From positions 1-64,000 of the forward strand of contig NZ_JAFUSK010000021.1 of the NCBI RefSeq assembly GCF_017471675.1: 64,000 nt of DNA, written 5' to 3'. Source of the DNA: Pseudobutyrivibrio sp. Its GTDB lineage: Bacteria; Bacillota; Clostridia; Lachnospirales; Lachnospiraceae. Positions 2,418 through 43,709 of the stretch are shown here, in pieces. A model generated the notes under the pieces. The model worked only from the letters and a program-made list of their open reading frames with translations. It searched no databases and had not been told where the DNA came from. Made by a program: the position numbers and the translations under genes. How positions within the stretch are numbered: position 1 is the stretch's first letter; each line of letters starts with the position of its first letter.

Positions 2418-5090
2418 TTATAGTCTACTATCATGACAGGTGAAGTACACTGTCTGACGTTCGTCGGCTATGGTATGAAGGAGTTTTAAGGACTCCTTTA
2501 TTTTTTTGTCGTCAAGATTGGTAAATGGATCATCCAAAATGAGGATTGGCTTTTCCTCTGGGTAGAGCACATCCACTAGGGCTAGGCGAGAGCAGAGAGC
2601 TACTAAATCCTGGTATCCCTGGGATAGGTACTCGGCGCCCTTGGTGCTGCCTGAATAAGTAAGCTTGATGTTAAGGTCCATATCAAGCTCGAAGTCATCG
2701 ATGGCGTAGCCGGATTTGGTGCCATCTGGGCCGTCGATTAGGCTTAAGTATTTGTGCAAGCCATTTTGAAGTGGCTGCATGTATTTGGCCTGGAAGCTTT
2801 CTCTGGCACGATTAAGGAAATCCTCTGTCTTGCCCAGGATGTCGGCTTCCTTTCTGTATTCCTTTTCCTTTACTTCAAGACGCTCTATCTGGTCTGAAAT
2901 ATCGCTTAATCGCTCTACTTCTTCTAGAGCCTGGGATAGGTTTTCCTTCTCCTGAATCAGCTGCTTGTTAAGCTCCATAATCTGCTCATCAAGCTCTGAC
3001 TGCCTCTGCTGCAAATCATCTACAGATTGAACATCCTCATTTACATCAAAGGCTGCCTCAAACTTGGCTATTTCTTCCTTTAGCTCATCAATACGTTCCT
3101 TGATTGCCTCGTACGCATGCTTCTTAAGACCTATGCTTTGTATTGCCTCAGCTCGTCTTAAAGATTCATCTACAGGGAAGCGTCTAAGTATATTTTCAAT
3201 ATCAGATGTCATTGTCTTGATGGAATTCTCATGGGCTGCAAGCTCTTCCTGTGACTCCAGATACTTGGCGTATCTATCTGCATCCTTCTTAAGCTGCGCC
3301 AAGAATTCGTATTCCCCGCCCATATCGTACAGATTGATTCCATAGCAGCTGGCAAAAGGCTGTATCTTAGTGTAAAGCTCCAACTGCAAATCAGCCAGCT
3401 CATCAAGTGTACCCTCAGCCTCCTGATGACGAGCATTTTCCTCTTCAAGCAAATGTCTGTATTGATCCAGCTTACGTCTGATTTCGTAAACATTCTCCTG
3501 CATGGTGGATGCTCTGGTAAGAAGGAAATGAGATAAGAAATCCTCACACTCTTCCTCTAGCTCCCTAAGCTCTAGCTTGCTCATTTCAAGCTCGTCTTCT
3601 TCCTGCTCTATTCTGTCCTCATAGTCAGAAGATTCCCTAAGCTTGCGCTTATGAGTACGCCTACCACTGATAATGAGGGCAAGCACATCCAAAACTATAG
3701 CTACGATGCTTACGATTTCCACTATACGGCCAATTTCGTTTGCCATATAGCCTGTAAACACTGCACCTGTAAGAATAAAAATAATCAAAAGAATAGTGCC
3801 AAGTATATGCCAAACAGTCACGGTATTTCTCTTATTAATCTTTTCATTGGCCTCCTGCTCAGCCTTAAGAGTAATTAATCTCTCATTGCTTTGGCTGATA
3901 CGTGCCTGCAAGCCAGTAATCTGAGTAGTCTGGCGCTCCACATGGGCAAGCTGTTCGTCAGTAGGCACCAGCTTATCAAAGAAAAACTTAAGCTCTGTCA
4001 GCTGCTTAGCTGATTCCTCGGAAAGCTTGGAATGCTCAGCCTTTGCTCTAAGCTCAGACAGATTAGCTGCCATCTTATTCCACATAGCAAATTCGCTATC
4101 ATCAGGAATCTTATCTAAGAATGGCTTTTCAAAGGCTGGCTCTTCCTTTTCAACATCCTCAAGCAATGCATTATATGCTCTCTCATGAACAGCCAAGTCA
4201 CGCTCAGTCTGCTCTAGCATTACAAGCTCATCATCAGATGGCACACCTACTGCAAAGAAATTATCAAGGTCTGAAATCTTTTGCTCCTCAGACAAAAGAT
4301 TTTCCTTATGGATTCGATATGCACCAAGCTCCTGCTCCTTCTTACTCTGAAGCTGAATCTGCTCTGCAAGCTTCGCCTTCTCATCGTTAAGCTTATCAAG
4401 ATTGTCCTGCTTCTCCTCAATAAGGCAGCTCATAGCCTCAACGCTCTCTTCTATGGCTGGGAGCTTTTCGTATTCCTCGCGGCATTTATTAATCTCCAGC
4501 TTAGTTCCAAAGAGCTTACCAGGATTAATCTTACTATTGCGGGTATATTCCACCCTGGCTTCCTTCACACTCTTAAGAGCCATATCGAAGTTACTGATAT
4601 CATCCCTGGCAGATGTAAGATTTCCCATCTTGGCATTCAGTGAATCAGTCATGGCTGTACCAAGAGAAAGCTGAGGAATATACACACTCTTCTCAAAGGA
4701 ATCCCTATCTACCTTAAAAAGCTCCTCACCGATATCCTCGGTGAAATCAGTACTCTCCAGTCCTGTCACATTATCATATAGTGCAAAGGTATCATCCCTA
4801 TCAGTCTTGCCAAATGTACGCTCAATACGGTACTGTCTATCCTTAACGCTAAAGACGATATTACCGCCACACAGGCTTCCATCCCAAGGCAGATAATGGT
4901 TACGCTCTAACAGCTTTTTCTTAGTATTAGGCGAATACTCAAGCCCGTAAAACATAGCCTTGATAAACACGGAAAAGGTGGTCTTGCCCCATCCATTCTC
5001 CTGCAGGATTGAGTTAAAGCCCTGATTAAAATCATATTTAAATTCTGTAATCTTGCCAAAATGGGCAATATAACAAGAGATAAGTTTCAT
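2418..5090 (-). CDS. SbcC/YhaN-like SMC-type ATPase, partner of the adjacent nuclease
   Basis: 890-aa ATPase of the SbcC/Rad50-like group. The P-loop is near residues 31-38 (ENGWGKTT) and the Q-loop near 137-144 (YIPQLSLG). Coiled coil spans about 195-420 and again 485-790. Two hydrophobic segments at about 425-446 and 457-475 sit where a Rad50 hinge would be. The signature region (LSQGYQDL) and Walker B (ILILDDPFTNLDD, about 849-861) close the head. The central membrane segments are typical of YhaN rather than classical SbcC. It starts immediately after the stop of the phosphoesterase gene, so the two are translated together. Expected role: the ATPase half of a DNA-end processing complex, probably at the membrane (family inference). 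Confidence 0.85.
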   Translation of the reverse strand: MKLISCYIAHFGKITEFKYDFNQGFNSILQENGWGKTTFSVFIKAMFYGLEYSPNTKKKLLERNHYLPWDGSLCGGNIVFSVKDRQYRIERTFGKTDRDDTFALYDNVTGLESTDFTEDIGEELFKVDRDSFEKSVYIPQLSLGTAMTDSLNAKMGNLTSARDDISNFDMALKSVKEARVEYTRNSKINPGKLFGTKLEINKCREEYEKLPAIEESVEAMSCLIEEKQDNLDKLNDEKAKLAEQIQLQSKKEQELGAYRIHKENLLSEEQKISDLDNFFAVGVPSDDELVMLEQTERDLAVHERAYNALLEDVEKEEPAFEKPFLDKIPDDSEFAMWNKMAANLSELRAKAEHSKLSEESAKQLTELKFFFDKLVPTDEQLAHVERQTTQITGLQARISQSNERLITLKAEQEANEKINKRNTVTVWHILGTILLIIFILTGAVFTGYMANEIGRIVEIVSIVAIVLDVLALIISGRRTHKRKLRESSDYEDRIEQEEDELEMSKLELRELEEECEDFLSHFLLTRASTMQENVYEIRRKLDQYRHLLEEENARHQEAEGTLDELADLQLELYTKIQPFASCYGINLYDMGGEYEFLAQLKKDADRYAKYLESQEELAAHENSIKTMTSDIENILRRFPVDESLRRAEAIQSIGLKKHAYEAIKERIDELKEEIAKFEAAFDVNEDVQSVDDLQQRQSELDEQIMELNKQLIQEKENLSQALEEVERLSDISDQIERLEVKEKEYRKEADILGKTEDFLNRARESFQAKYMQPLQNGLHKYLSLIDGPDGTKSGYAIDDFELDMDLNIKLTYSGSTKGAEYLSQGYQDLVALCSRLALVDVLYPEEKPILILDDPFTNLDDKKIKESLKLLHTIADERQTVYFTCHDSRL

Positions 5091-6173
5091 TTATATTTCC
5101 TCCCCCATTATGGCTCTAATGCCAATTTCGATAATCTTAGCCTTTTCATCCTCATCCATATCCTGAGACTGCACCAGCCTGACGAACTCGCCCTTAAGGC
5201 TCTTATCATATTTGAAGCTATCGTAATCTACTAGAGTCTTAGTTCTGTCATAACATTTTACAAAGAAATATTTATTCTCAAACAAGCGGACAAAGCGGAT
5301 AATATCAAGCTCATCATCCAGCTCTCTCTCTCCTGTCAGCACGAACTTAACCAAATCCTGGTCATCCACATCAAGCAACTGCTCCCTGGCCTTAGCTGCT
5401 ACCGCCTGTAAATCCATATCCGCAGTAACCTCTACATTAATCTCATGCAAGCGCCTAAGGGCAAATGGAATAAACTCCGATGTTATCACACCATTCTCTA
5501 CCTCCATCAGCACAAAGCCCTTATCACCTGTCTCGTCGAAGCCGCGGCCCTCTAAGCATCCCGGATAGCAATACACACCTCTATCATCCAGTGGCTCAAA
5601 CATAAACTTGTGGACATGTCCCAGTGCCAGATAATCAATAAACTTGCCCTTCAATGCCTGTGTATTGATAATCTCCGCACCATCCTTACCATCATAATCA
5701 GCCTGCTGTCCATGCAACATAACGATATTAGTAGCCGCCGAATCAAGCACCAGACGCTGAGCCATAGTAGACACATTGCTGTCATTTAGCTCCATGCCTG
5801 TAATCACTACATCCTCGCAACTATAGCTGGTCCAACCATCTGCATTAAACATATGAAAATTAGAAGGTATCTCATCTATACCCTCTTCCATAAAATCGCA
5901 TCTATCATGATTGCCCTTAAGATAATAGAAATCAATCTCAGGCGCATCTACAATCTGCTCCACAACACGCTTCTTAACATCCTTGCGGATATGCGTCTTG
6001 TCGAACAAATCGCCAGCAATCAAAATAGCCCTAACGCCGTTTTGCTTAGCAAACTCTACCATACGCTCGTAGGTTTCCACCAGCTCAATACGACGAAGTG
6101 CCGCTTGCTCTTTATCTAAATTACTTTCCATCTTGGAATCTAAGTGCAGGTCCGCACAGTGAATAATCTTCAT
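5091..6173 (-). CDS. SbcD/YhaO-like metallophosphoesterase (DNA repair nuclease)
   Basis: 360-aa calcineurin-like phosphoesterase. All five metal-binding blocks are visible: DLHLD near residue 8, GDLFD near 56, GNHD near 97, an isolated His in MLHGQ, and GHVH near 184. These define the Mre11/SbcD nuclease fold, which cuts double-strand DNA ends and hairpins together with the SbcC-type ATPase encoded next. The C-terminal about 120 residues would be the capping/ATPase-contact part. It is first in a two-gene unit with no gap before the ATPase. Its upstream region holds long-hairpin element A. Hairpin-cutting activity beside a giant palindrome is a suggestive neighbour, but this may be coincidence. 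Confidence 0.88.
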   Translation of the reverse strand: MKIIHCADLHLDSKMESNLDKEQAALRRIELVETYERMVEFAKQNGVRAILIAGDLFDKTHIRKDVKKRVVEQIVDAPEIDFYYLKGNHDRCDFMEEGIDEIPSNFHMFNADGWTSYSCEDVVITGMELNDSNVSTMAQRLVLDSAATNIVMLHGQQADYDGKDGAEIINTQALKGKFIDYLALGHVHKFMFEPLDDRGVYCYPGCLEGRGFDETGDKGFVLMEVENGVITSEFIPFALRRLHEINVEVTADMDLQAVAAKAREQLLDVDDQDLVKFVLTGERELDDELDIIRFVRLFENKYFFVKCYDRTKTLVDYDSFKYDKSLKGEFVRLVQSQDMDEDEKAKIIEIGIRAIMGEEI

Positions 6174-6300
6174 GCCATTACCCCCGAAAAAACTACGTAT
6201 ATTCTACCATATTTGTTACACCTTGTAACTATCTACTGCCCCATCTTGCCCCCAATCTTAGCCTACCTCCTGCCTTCCCTTAACCCTCCGTTGCCCCTGC

Positions 6301-6922
6301 CCCGCCTACCCCACCGCTTAATAAATTTCGGATGCCATGCCACGGGCGCTTATTTCTATAGCTTCCCGCCATCATTTGAGCAGAATCGTACATTTTCTTA
6401 ATGCTGCAAATGCCCCTTCAAGTTAGTGTCTTTTTACTGATTTTGCACTTTCAGCCTACTGTATCCCTGACACAGACACTCTTGATGTTCTAAAAAGCTT
6501 CCACATTAAAATATATAAATAATTGCATTCATATTACATTCGCTAAGTAGAATCTAAAAGCTGTTTTTGTATGTTTTCGTACCGGCTTCAAGCTCAGTCC
6601 ATTTCGCTATCAGCCTTGGGCTGCCGTCCGTGGCAGCCCATACGCAAACATTCAAAAACTGCTTTAAGATTCTACTAAGCTCATTTCAAAATCATGCAAT
6701 TATTTATATATTTTAATATGGAAGCTAGTTAGGGTATATGAGTGTCTGTGTCAGGGAGACAGTAGGCTGAAAGTGCAAAGAATTAAAAAGACTCTAACAA
6801 TCAAAGAAGGGGCATTTGTAGTATTTAGAAAATGTAGATTCTGGGATTGTGGCGGGAAGCTATAGAAATAAGCGCCCGTGGCATGGCAAAAGAAGTCCTA
6901 AATTGGCGGTGGGGCAGGCGGG
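6301..6922. repeat. Long-hairpin element, copy A (about 620 nt imperfect palindrome)
   Basis: The region folds on itself from end to end. Outer arms 6301-6317/6906-6922 match at 16 of 17 positions. Arms 6333-6371/6850-6888 are perfect over 39 bp. Arms 6496-6528/6694-6726 match at 32 of 33. Imperfect arms flanking the apex (about 6556-6573/6644-6665) continue the stem. The apex is a 70-nt segment (6574-6643) containing its own hairpin GGGCTGCC/GGCAGCCC, and this segment recurs exactly, inverted, in copy B. Partly paired asymmetric internal loops separate the arms. No ORF of substance lies inside. It fills the gap between the phosphoesterase start and the chemoreceptor stop. The remaining 127 nt to the left are C-rich and otherwise unremarkable. 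Confidence 0.9.
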
Positions 6923-12420: not shown

Positions 12421-12563
12421 TTTCCGTCACTCCAAATCTACTACTAACTTACGCACTTTCACGCATCAATTTGCGCACATACCTAAGATAAATATAATAA
12501 AATATTCCCAATCCTACAAGACTTTGCGCCCCCAAAAACGTGAAGATTTTGTGTCCTCGCCCA

Positions 12564-13252
12564 GCCCTGCCCACCTGCCCCTCTATCTGGCCTACGCCTA
12601 TGCCTCACCCATACCATCTTGGGGCGCAACGCCACTGTAGCATGGTGATTTCCCTATACTTTCTGCCACAATCGCAGAATCTTTATTTTCTAAATGCTAC
12701 AAATGCCGCTTCTTTGATTGTTAGTGTCTTTTTAATTCTTTGCACTTTCAGCCACCTGTATTCCTGGCGCAGACACTCATACACTTTATTTAGCTTCCAC
12801 ATTATAATTTATAAATAATTGCATGATTTTGGAACGAGCTTAGTAAAAGAAAAAGCGGGTTTTGCATGTTTTAGTATGGGCTGCCACGGACGGCAGCCCA
12901 AGGCTGATAGCGAAATGGACTGAGCTTGAAGCCGGTACGAAAACATTCAAAACCCGCTTTTAGCTTTTACTTAGCGAGTGTAATATGAATGCAATTATTT
13001 ATAAATTATAATGTGGAAGCTTTTGAAAACATCAAGAGTGTCTGTGCCAGGAATACAGGTGGCTGAAAGTGCAAAATCAGTAAAAAGACACTAACTTGAA
13101 GCGGGATTTGCAGCATTAAGAAAATATTAGATTCTGCTCAAATGATGTCAGAAAGTATAGGGAAATCACCATGCTACAGCCTGCGTTGCCTAGAAATATT
13201 ACGGGGGGTGAAGCATAGGCCGTAGCCCCCACCCTTTGTAGGTGGGCAGGGC
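12564..13252. repeat. Long-hairpin element, copy B (about 690 nt, inverted relative to copy A)
   Basis: Outer arms 12564-12576/13240-13252 are perfect over 13 bp. Arms 12636-12665/13149-13178 are perfect over 30 bp, and 12792-12824/12989-13021 over 33 bp. The apex 12874-12943 is the exact reverse complement of the 70-nt apex of copy A. Left-arm sequence of B matches right-arm sequence of A and vice versa, including unpaired internal-loop sequence. Where A and B differ inside stems, both strands differ, so pairing is kept. The right end reaches within a few bases of the ung stop codon; the left end lies about 144 nt upstream of the hybrid kinase. No coding potential seen. Confidence 0.9.
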
Positions 13253-13257
13253 GTAGG

Positions 13258-13932
13258 CTAGATGTTTTCGATTTGCCAGTCGATTGGGGCGAGGCCGTGG
13301 TTGGTTAGGAACTGGTTGGTTTGGCTAAAGTGTTTGCAGCCGAAGAAGCCCCTGTATGCTGAGAGAGGGGATGGGTGTGGTGCGCGAAGGATTAGGTGGT
13401 TAGGGTTGTTTAGCTTGGCGCACTTTTTGGCTGCTGGGGAGCCCCATAGTAGGAATACGATTGGGCGATCCTGCTTGTTTAGGATGTCGATTACGGCATC
13501 AGTGAACTGTTCCCAGCCAAGGCCTGCATGGCTGGCAGCCTGGTGTGCTCTGACGGTGAGTACGTTGTTGAGCATAAGAACGCCCTGACGTGCCCATTTT
13601 TCCAGGTAGCCGTTGTTTGGAATGTAGCAACCTAAATCGTCCTGTAATTCCTTGTAGATGTTTACAAGTGATGGTGGAGTCTTAACACCAGGCTTTACGG
13701 AAAAGCATAAGCCGTGGGCCTGGCCTGGCTCATGGTAAGGATCCTGTCCTATGATAACAACCTTCACGTCTTTAAGTGGGGTGAAATCAAAGGCGTTGAA
13801 AATATCGTCTGCCGGTGGGTAGACGATGTTTTCGTGGTATTCCTTTTTAACATTTTCGTAAAGTGATTTGTAATATGGCTTTTTAAATTCTGGTGTAAGT
13901 GGCTCTAGCCAATCATTTGAAATTGCTGACAT
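13258..13932 (-). CDS. ung: Uracil-DNA glycosylase, family 1
   Basis: 224 aa, the usual length of family 1 UDG. It removes uracil from DNA as the first step of base-excision repair. The water-activating loop GQDPYH lies near residue 60 ([17 protein letters not shown]). The uracil-specificity Asn lies in MLNNVL, and the leucine-intercalation loop is [12 protein letters not shown] near 185. The gene lies 9 nt downstream of niaR, at the end of the nad operon. Its stop codon touches long-hairpin element B, which may form the 3' end of the transcript. Confidence 0.97.
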
Positions 13933-43506: not shown

Positions 43507-43526
43507 ATAGCTTACCTTACTATGTA

Positions 43527-43621
43527 GCAGCGGGATGCGAATTTAAAACCGCGGTAACATCCTTCGTCCATCTGCCAACTCCCTGTGCAAACGGCACTTA
43601 ACGCTTTAAATTCTACTCTGC
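43527..43621 (-). promoter_or_regulatory. Tetrahydrofolate (THF) riboswitch
   Basis: Read on the minus strand, the conserved order of the folT-type THF riboswitch is present: AGAGTAG at the start, GCGTTAAGTG, GGATGTTACCGCGG, and CGCATCCCGCTGC at the end. GCAG/CTGC close P1, and GAATTTAAA pairs with TTTTAAATTC in P2. It lies 70 nt before folT, the gene this class normally controls. Confidence 0.9.
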
Positions 43622-43709
43622 ATTTGTCTAATTAATTGTCTCGCCTACAGTATAAGATTAGCTATCCTTTAATGCAATAGAAAATATTATTTTTTGCTAT
43701 AAAATAAAT

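Follow-up and report, generated by a model that had tools for sequence, protein, structure and literature searches.

The window, i.e. the whole stretch of 64,000 nucleotides analysed here (Pseudobutyrivibrio sp., assembly GCF_017471675.1, contig NZ_JAFUSK010000021.1, positions 1 to 64,000), carries two giant hairpins, A and B, in opposite orientation. The paired span of element A runs from 6303 to 6920 with approximate ends, and the RNA at its apex is read from the minus strand. It is flanked by a Metallophos gene, which is followed by an AAA_23 gene, and by a methyl-accepting chemotaxis gene. We take the Metallophos gene to be sbcD and the AAA_23 gene to be sbcC. These sbcC-/sbcD-like genes (2418-6173; domains by Pfam) directly adjoin element A, and their products presumably have a hairpin-nuclease role. 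Element B has a hybrid histidine kinase gene on one side and a uracil-DNA glycosylase gene on the other, and overlaps the end of the stop codon of the latter; its RNA is read from the plus strand. B had originally been delimited at 12564-13252; empty sites in other genomes put the borders of the whole insertion at about 12558-13259 (± 5 nt) instead. The reading frames across the arms of A and B are short and merely mechanical. Elsewhere in the window a THF riboswitch was detected at 43526-43622 on the minus strand (84.2 bits).

Folding of 6300-6920 (A) yielded -372.1 kcal/mol (z -36.2) and of 12590-13252 (B) -374.2 kcal/mol (z -28.9); each beat 20 of 20 dinucleotide shuffles. As originally predicted, the 70-nt apex of B (12874-12943) and 6574-6643 in A are exact reverse complements of each other, and identity extends for 3 more nt on the right. 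The predicted match of the left arm of B with the right arm of A was also recovered as two inverted pairs, 6362-6665/12852-13155 (304 nt, 91%) and 6670-6859/12659-12848 (190 nt, 87%). The outer stems of A and B match each other only loosely, and each is self-complementary. In A, 6333-6371 pairs with 6850-6888 over 39 bp without a mismatch, as had been claimed; the perfect stem of 30 bp claimed for B turned out to be one of 34 nt with 1 mismatch (12635-12668 with 13146-13179). The sequence of the outer stem of B differs in both arms in the orthologous copy of genome G006 (L110).

An Rfam RNA at the apex

A cmscan search of Rfam identified both apices as TwoAYGGAY RNA (RF01731) above the gathering threshold of 43 bits, at 6532-6690 on the minus strand in A (71.4 bits, E 5e-10) and at 12828-12985 on the plus strand in B (64.6 bits, E 1.8e-8). 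With this identification a reading of the apex as an orphan RNA was dropped. Two AYGGAY sites, ACGGAC and ATGGAC, are present in A and in B. Among 98 copies from the genus the first GGA was found in 97 and the second in 55 (96 and 14 in a cruder hairpin test). A passage in Gardner and Eldai (2014; PMC4333381) proposes that TwoAYGGAY binds CsrA. A table in Weinberg et al. (2010; PMC2864571) rates it as probably an RNA and as probably neither cis-regulatory nor a riboswitch; in contrast, the Rfam type of RF01731 is cis-reg. In their passages on this family, PMC7657543 and the Rfam 15 paper (PMC11701678) only remark that covariation lengthens the TwoAYGGAY helix or adds pairs. In the parts of the open-licence literature covered by our search nothing was found on TwoAYGGAY inside a palindromic mobile element, and no paper in the open-licence literature searched named both Pseudobutyrivibrio and 'inverted repeat'.

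A csrA gene is present in 28 of the 29 genomes of the genus; the single miss, G015, is a genome of 81% completeness. The apical RNA may be a CsrA binder, with which the presence of csrA and the GGA counts are compatible without being proof. In one instance csrA was encountered about 370 nt from a TwoAYGGAY copy, at G008:C1:229517-230200.

Distribution and palindromic build

RF01731 was matched in 27 of 29 Pseudobutyrivibrio genomes, with at least 252 matches in all and at least 49 in G008. At a lax threshold the window's own genome yields 15 matches, of which 13 exceed the cut-off, and similarity to B reaches 13 of its contig ends within 15 nt. Because contigs end in or beside hairpins, short-read assemblies probably undercount them. 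The 98 copies, from 26 genomes, were taken by score and genome, i.e. not at random, among the at least 252 matches listed; copies at contig ends (L035, L037-L041, L052) were excluded. In 80 of the 98 the palindrome is at least 500 nt long, and the median span is 641 nt. With respect to genes, 32 copies are antisense, 26 sense, 24 lie between convergent and 5 between divergent genes, and 11 could not be assigned.

Large palindromes were also searched for in 1,597,405 bases of G008, without the RNA as a starting point. Of 42 palindromes above the score, 37 contain RF01731 among the matches listed; the other five comprise one TwoAYGGAY-like apex (by eye), one masked apex and three other hairpins. 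Conversely, 37 of the 38 RF01731 matches listed for the scanned stretches sit in large palindromes. At the level of the bacterial family, a match was obtained in 65 of 397 genomes (58 of 334 genera). In the other genera the arms were shorter than 320 nt at 25 of 30 loci (one per genome, best-scoring); the longest three measured 675, 430 and 392 nt.

Ends, target duplications and empty sites

Common ends emerged from close paralogs: intact copies run GTTACTATTCAC...GTGAATAGTAAC, a 12-bp terminal inverted repeat. The end 12-mer was counted 145 times, in 27 of 29 genomes, compared with 58 occurrences of a backwards control, so that single end hits can be due to chance; for the recurring inverted GTGAATAGTAAC pairs chance is a less likely source. 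Such inverted pairs occur at two spacings, about 600-750 bp (the giant hairpins) and about 192 bp (a second, smaller element). The 192-bp element (L274-L277, L280) has the same 12-bp ends and, by eye, seemingly copy-specific self-complementary stems; in L276 its two hairpins appear, again by eye, in swapped order.

An 8-bp target duplication was apparent in 38 distinct end-delimited elements, drawn from the larger and the smaller size class (3.87 of 8 positions matching vs 2.59 after shuffling, sd 0.22); up to 2 mismatches per end were allowed, and a few of the 38 may therefore be spurious. The duplication is exact in two elements (L045, L088) and matches at 7 of 8 positions in three more. In the same set no comparable excess was seen for duplications of 5-7 or 10 bp, and only a small one for 9 bp. 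For L030, an element of the window's genome, G013 offers a clean empty site, and the duplication reads ATTTATTT/AATTATTT; a flank search for L279 did not yield an orthologous empty site. Of the 18 genomes examined, three (G000, G006 and G013) carry element B and 15 lack it. Its empty site reads GTGTCCT/AAATATTTTC in G024, G004 and G023, compared with GTGTCCT/CGCCC...GTAGGCT/AGATGTTTTC in the window (slashes mark the junctions). Upstream of sbcD, 14 other genomes were examined, in which the next gene varies. Seven have a palindrome there, of the kind of A in G006 and G013 and with other apices in G004/G023, G002/G003 and G010, and seven have none; in G024, one of these, a deletion may be the reason.

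The 12-bp terminal inverted repeat and the 8-bp duplication of intact copies indicate insertion by a transposase. Intact ends, target duplication and empty sites mark the family as a MITE-like mobile element. An intact terminal repeat was sought at the ends of A and B and not found, and the 8-bp duplication is known from other copies; A and B may be read as old copies of the same family. Because paralog similarity often stops near ± 240 nt, we considered whether the core had been inserted, in nested fashion, within other hairpins. This reading was dropped since in aligned copies the conserved landmarks and the terminal repeat continue outside, and since at the empty sites B is missing as a whole.

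The arms change together

The four arms of A and B were aligned. Changes in both arms were found in 17 columns compared with 2 columns of a cross control pattern; of the remaining columns 30 kept the same mismatch in both elements, 76 had other changes, 168 were invariant and 36 gapped. Next to this single comparison, 95 within-genome pairs of paralogs (67 copies from 12 genomes, with no more than 15 pairs from any one genome) showed 3916 both-arm differences vs 221 in the cross control, with 2932 shared mismatches and 6300 other columns; these comparisons are mutually non-independent and the copies were picked by score. The original prediction that the arms had changed together was borne out at both scales.

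The outer stem is most conspicuous. At 220-260 and 260-300 nt from the centre the median pairing of an arm with its own other arm was 0.80 and 0.62, respectively (95/98 copies). Against another copy the values dropped to 0.30 and 0.28 (opposite arm) and to 0.36 and 0.28 (same arm); random pairing is 0.25 and 0.20. Some copies are nevertheless related in the outer stem, with 6 of 397 same-genome pairs above 0.8 identity over 73 nt; 241 of the 397 could be aligned locally over 35 columns or more at 60%, a figure that stands without a random control. The paired bases of the outer stem are 61% G+C, with a C-rich 5' arm and a G-rich 3' arm. Covariation is real, and it is strongest in the outer stem: there the copies resemble each other hardly more than expected by chance, yet each pairs with itself.

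Orthologous copies mostly decay, and some are rewritten

Nine pairs of orthologous copies displayed 226 one-arm and 38 both-arm changes. Of the latter, 34 were confined to two pairs, locus B (14) and L145/L147 (20), and 32 were at least about 212 nt away from the centre. In the other seven pairs, which include L033/L116 and L027/L046, possibly not orthologs as the flank check failed on the side tested, 4 of 179 changes were compensated. This indicates that arm copying is not continuous and that most standing copies decay.

At locus B the flanks of G000 and G006 differ by 2.4%; 13 of the 14 both-arm changes fell into the outer stem zone, and 17 changes affected one arm. Five genomes were searched for a donor of the G006 stem besides the locus and its orthologs, and none was convincing (a 26-nt match of 92% exists in G004). 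Four related copies in G007 were compared in all six pairs. Summed over the pairs, the core had 5 both-arm and 91 one-arm changes, stem 1 had 14 and 50, and stem 2 had 35 and 42; two different perfect pairs were present in 3 of 32 variable columns of the core and in 16 of 42 of the stem. Here, runs of adjacent bases had changed in both arms (CCC>TAA, CAG>ATT, GC>AT), and a 1-nt deletion was present in both arms. Compared with G000 and G013, G006 has the RNA of locus A on the opposite strand relative to sbcD, and the interior there is inverted as judged by eye. At one locus in G027 and G028 the outer arms were kept and the core was different. As read from these sequences, the rewritten stem of B, the multi-base changes in G007 and the inversion at locus A support arm-to-arm copying as a probable process in the outer stems.

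Could pairing be set in the propagating lineage alone? Transposition would need hairpin or cruciform DNA, so that copies without paired arms would leave no offspring, ordinary selection in that lineage would bring about the compensation without any copying between arms, and resident copies would simply decay. That resident orthologs mostly lose pairing one arm at a time agrees with this, as do the internal mismatches which copies have in common while their stems vary (the 2932 columns above). However, locus B and L145/L147 have both-arm changes between orthologous copies, and adjacent multi-base changes in both arms are hard to obtain stepwise. We consider this account rather unlikely.

Mismatches in the arms

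Another explanation would be a functional host RNA that comprises the entire hairpin and is selected for its fold, and the strong covariation is what this would produce. Read in the sense of the TwoAYGGAY RNA, the mismatches comprised 483 G.U and 475 A.C, i.e. no overall excess. Within 80 nt of the centre, at the Rfam apex, G.U prevailed over A.C (89 vs 41), an RNA-like excess which fits a host RNA; beyond 80 nt the numbers were 394 and 434, which does not. Single 40-nt bins lean either way (80-120 nt, 77 vs 41; 120-160 nt, 75 vs 125; 160-200 nt, 64 vs 22; 200-240 nt, 16 vs 56), as is expected where related copies share identical mismatches. In the outer stem A.C exceeded G.U (98 vs 62; by copy 34 vs 16 with 32 ties, of 82). 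This is not what RNA selection on the TwoAYGGAY strand would give; a bias of the other strand is possible. Among double changes transversions outnumbered transitions (1210 vs 707), which is in favour of copying at the DNA level; single changes were split into 535 and 545, respectively (the pairs overlap). Further, pairing is freely lost in most fixed copies, the orientation to flanking genes is mixed and copies are present or absent at given loci, all of which speaks against a host RNA and makes it improbable. With G.U about equal to A.C and orthologs mostly uncompensated, selection on an RNA fold of the arms is not supported. Thus, of the original proposal that structure is maintained either by selection on a fold or by copying from arm to arm, the second part finds support in the outer stems and the first finds none in the arms.

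Search for a mobilising transposase

No mobilising transposase was found at 30 loci with the end motif. Likewise, in one genome (1.6 Mb, 8 long end pairs) none was enclosed among the genes checked, i.e. 10 of the long frames of five pairs by Pfam and those of three pairs by eye. Mobilisation of the hairpins by IS4-family insertion sequences, which occur in the genus, is highly improbable: one copy, L273, is placed between GTTACTATTCAC and GTGAATAGTAAC, but its relatives end in CAATGTCATTWAGTTAA-type repeats and occupy hairpin loops, terminator-like ones included, with duplication of the loop, and the family was found in only 8 of 29 genomes (E <= 1e-20), so that after reading of ends and targets this partner was rejected.

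IS4-family copies with CAATGTCATT-type ends reside in terminator-like hairpin loops (L286, L288, L290), and in G028 two (L297, L299) are inserted in the first TwoAYGGAY hairpin loop, in each case with the loop duplicated. In G013 the two ends of one giant hairpin enclose an IS110-family transposase gene (L272, 1020-2228). IS66-type elements, a candidate source of the mobilising transposase, generate an 8-bp duplication and have ends starting with GTAA.

Discussion

The data are probably best explained by A and B being old copies of a MITE-like element, the arms of which are kept paired by propagation of structured DNA together with template switching, while resident copies decay. In the family a TwoAYGGAY RNA sits in the middle of a near-palindrome, mostly of 600-750 bp; the element would be a non-autonomous, non-coding MITE-like transposon of Pseudobutyrivibrio, on which a transposase would act in trans. 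In the propagating lineage only well-paired, structured DNA would be passed on. In the long perfect outer stems replication would also switch template between the arms and copy clustered changes across; the same process could invert the interior of the hairpin. Copies that are fixed and no longer move would lose pairing arm by arm, and the arms would not be kept for an RNA function. We favour this combination of template switching between arms and selection in the propagating lineage, in which the mechanism of stem rewriting is deduced. The faster change of the outer stem compared with the core and the flanks is not accounted for by template switching alone.

A more far-reaching proposal can be put forward only tentatively. 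The family may represent a class of bacterial mobile DNA that rewrites its own long paired stems. Its hypervariable, self-templated outer stem would be remade from one copy to the next and at times in situ, with conserved loops as its limits and a structured RNA at the apex; complementarity and not sequence would be constrained, and DNA copying between the arms would do the rewriting.

What are the implications? TwoAYGGAY, so far an orphan Rfam family, gains a genomic home and a means of spread. The many natural copies make it possible to ask whether selection or template switching underlies compensatory change in hairpins. Covariation of arms is usually read as a sign of a functional RNA. Here, strong covariation in a mobile palindrome is accompanied by mismatches that lack a G.U preference, which calls for caution in covariation-based RNA discovery. 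Lastly, genomes with an sbcD-like gene (29 of 29) carry such matches, at least 49 of them in G008.

How does the family compare with known systems? The window copies score above the gathering threshold of RF01731 and have the two small hairpins with GGA loops; however, the model covers about 160 nt, whereas here the apex is mounted on palindromic arms of 600-750 nt in the centre of a mobile element. With bacterial MITEs the family shares the non-coding and multicopy nature and, in intact copies, the terminal inverted repeat and the target duplication; it differs in being almost wholly palindromic, in the structured RNA inside and in the copy-specific self-complementary stems. Like REPINs/RAYT (PMC3116915), it is extragenic, hairpin-forming, non-autonomous mobile DNA; it is much longer and has 12-bp terminal repeats and an 8-bp duplication. 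Template switching has been reported (PMC8604942, PMC8794818) to homogenise arms, invert spacers and maintain hairpins. Signs of arm homogenisation, of multi-base compensatory change and of spacer inversion, known from template-switch mutation at inverted repeats, are seen here. Those studies deal with RNA genes and yeast coding DNA, whereas here hundreds of bp of a bacterial mobile family are concerned. The element is of a known kind, MITE-like, and is unusual in its palindromic build with an Rfam RNA at the centre; the rewriting of paired stems is the surprising part.
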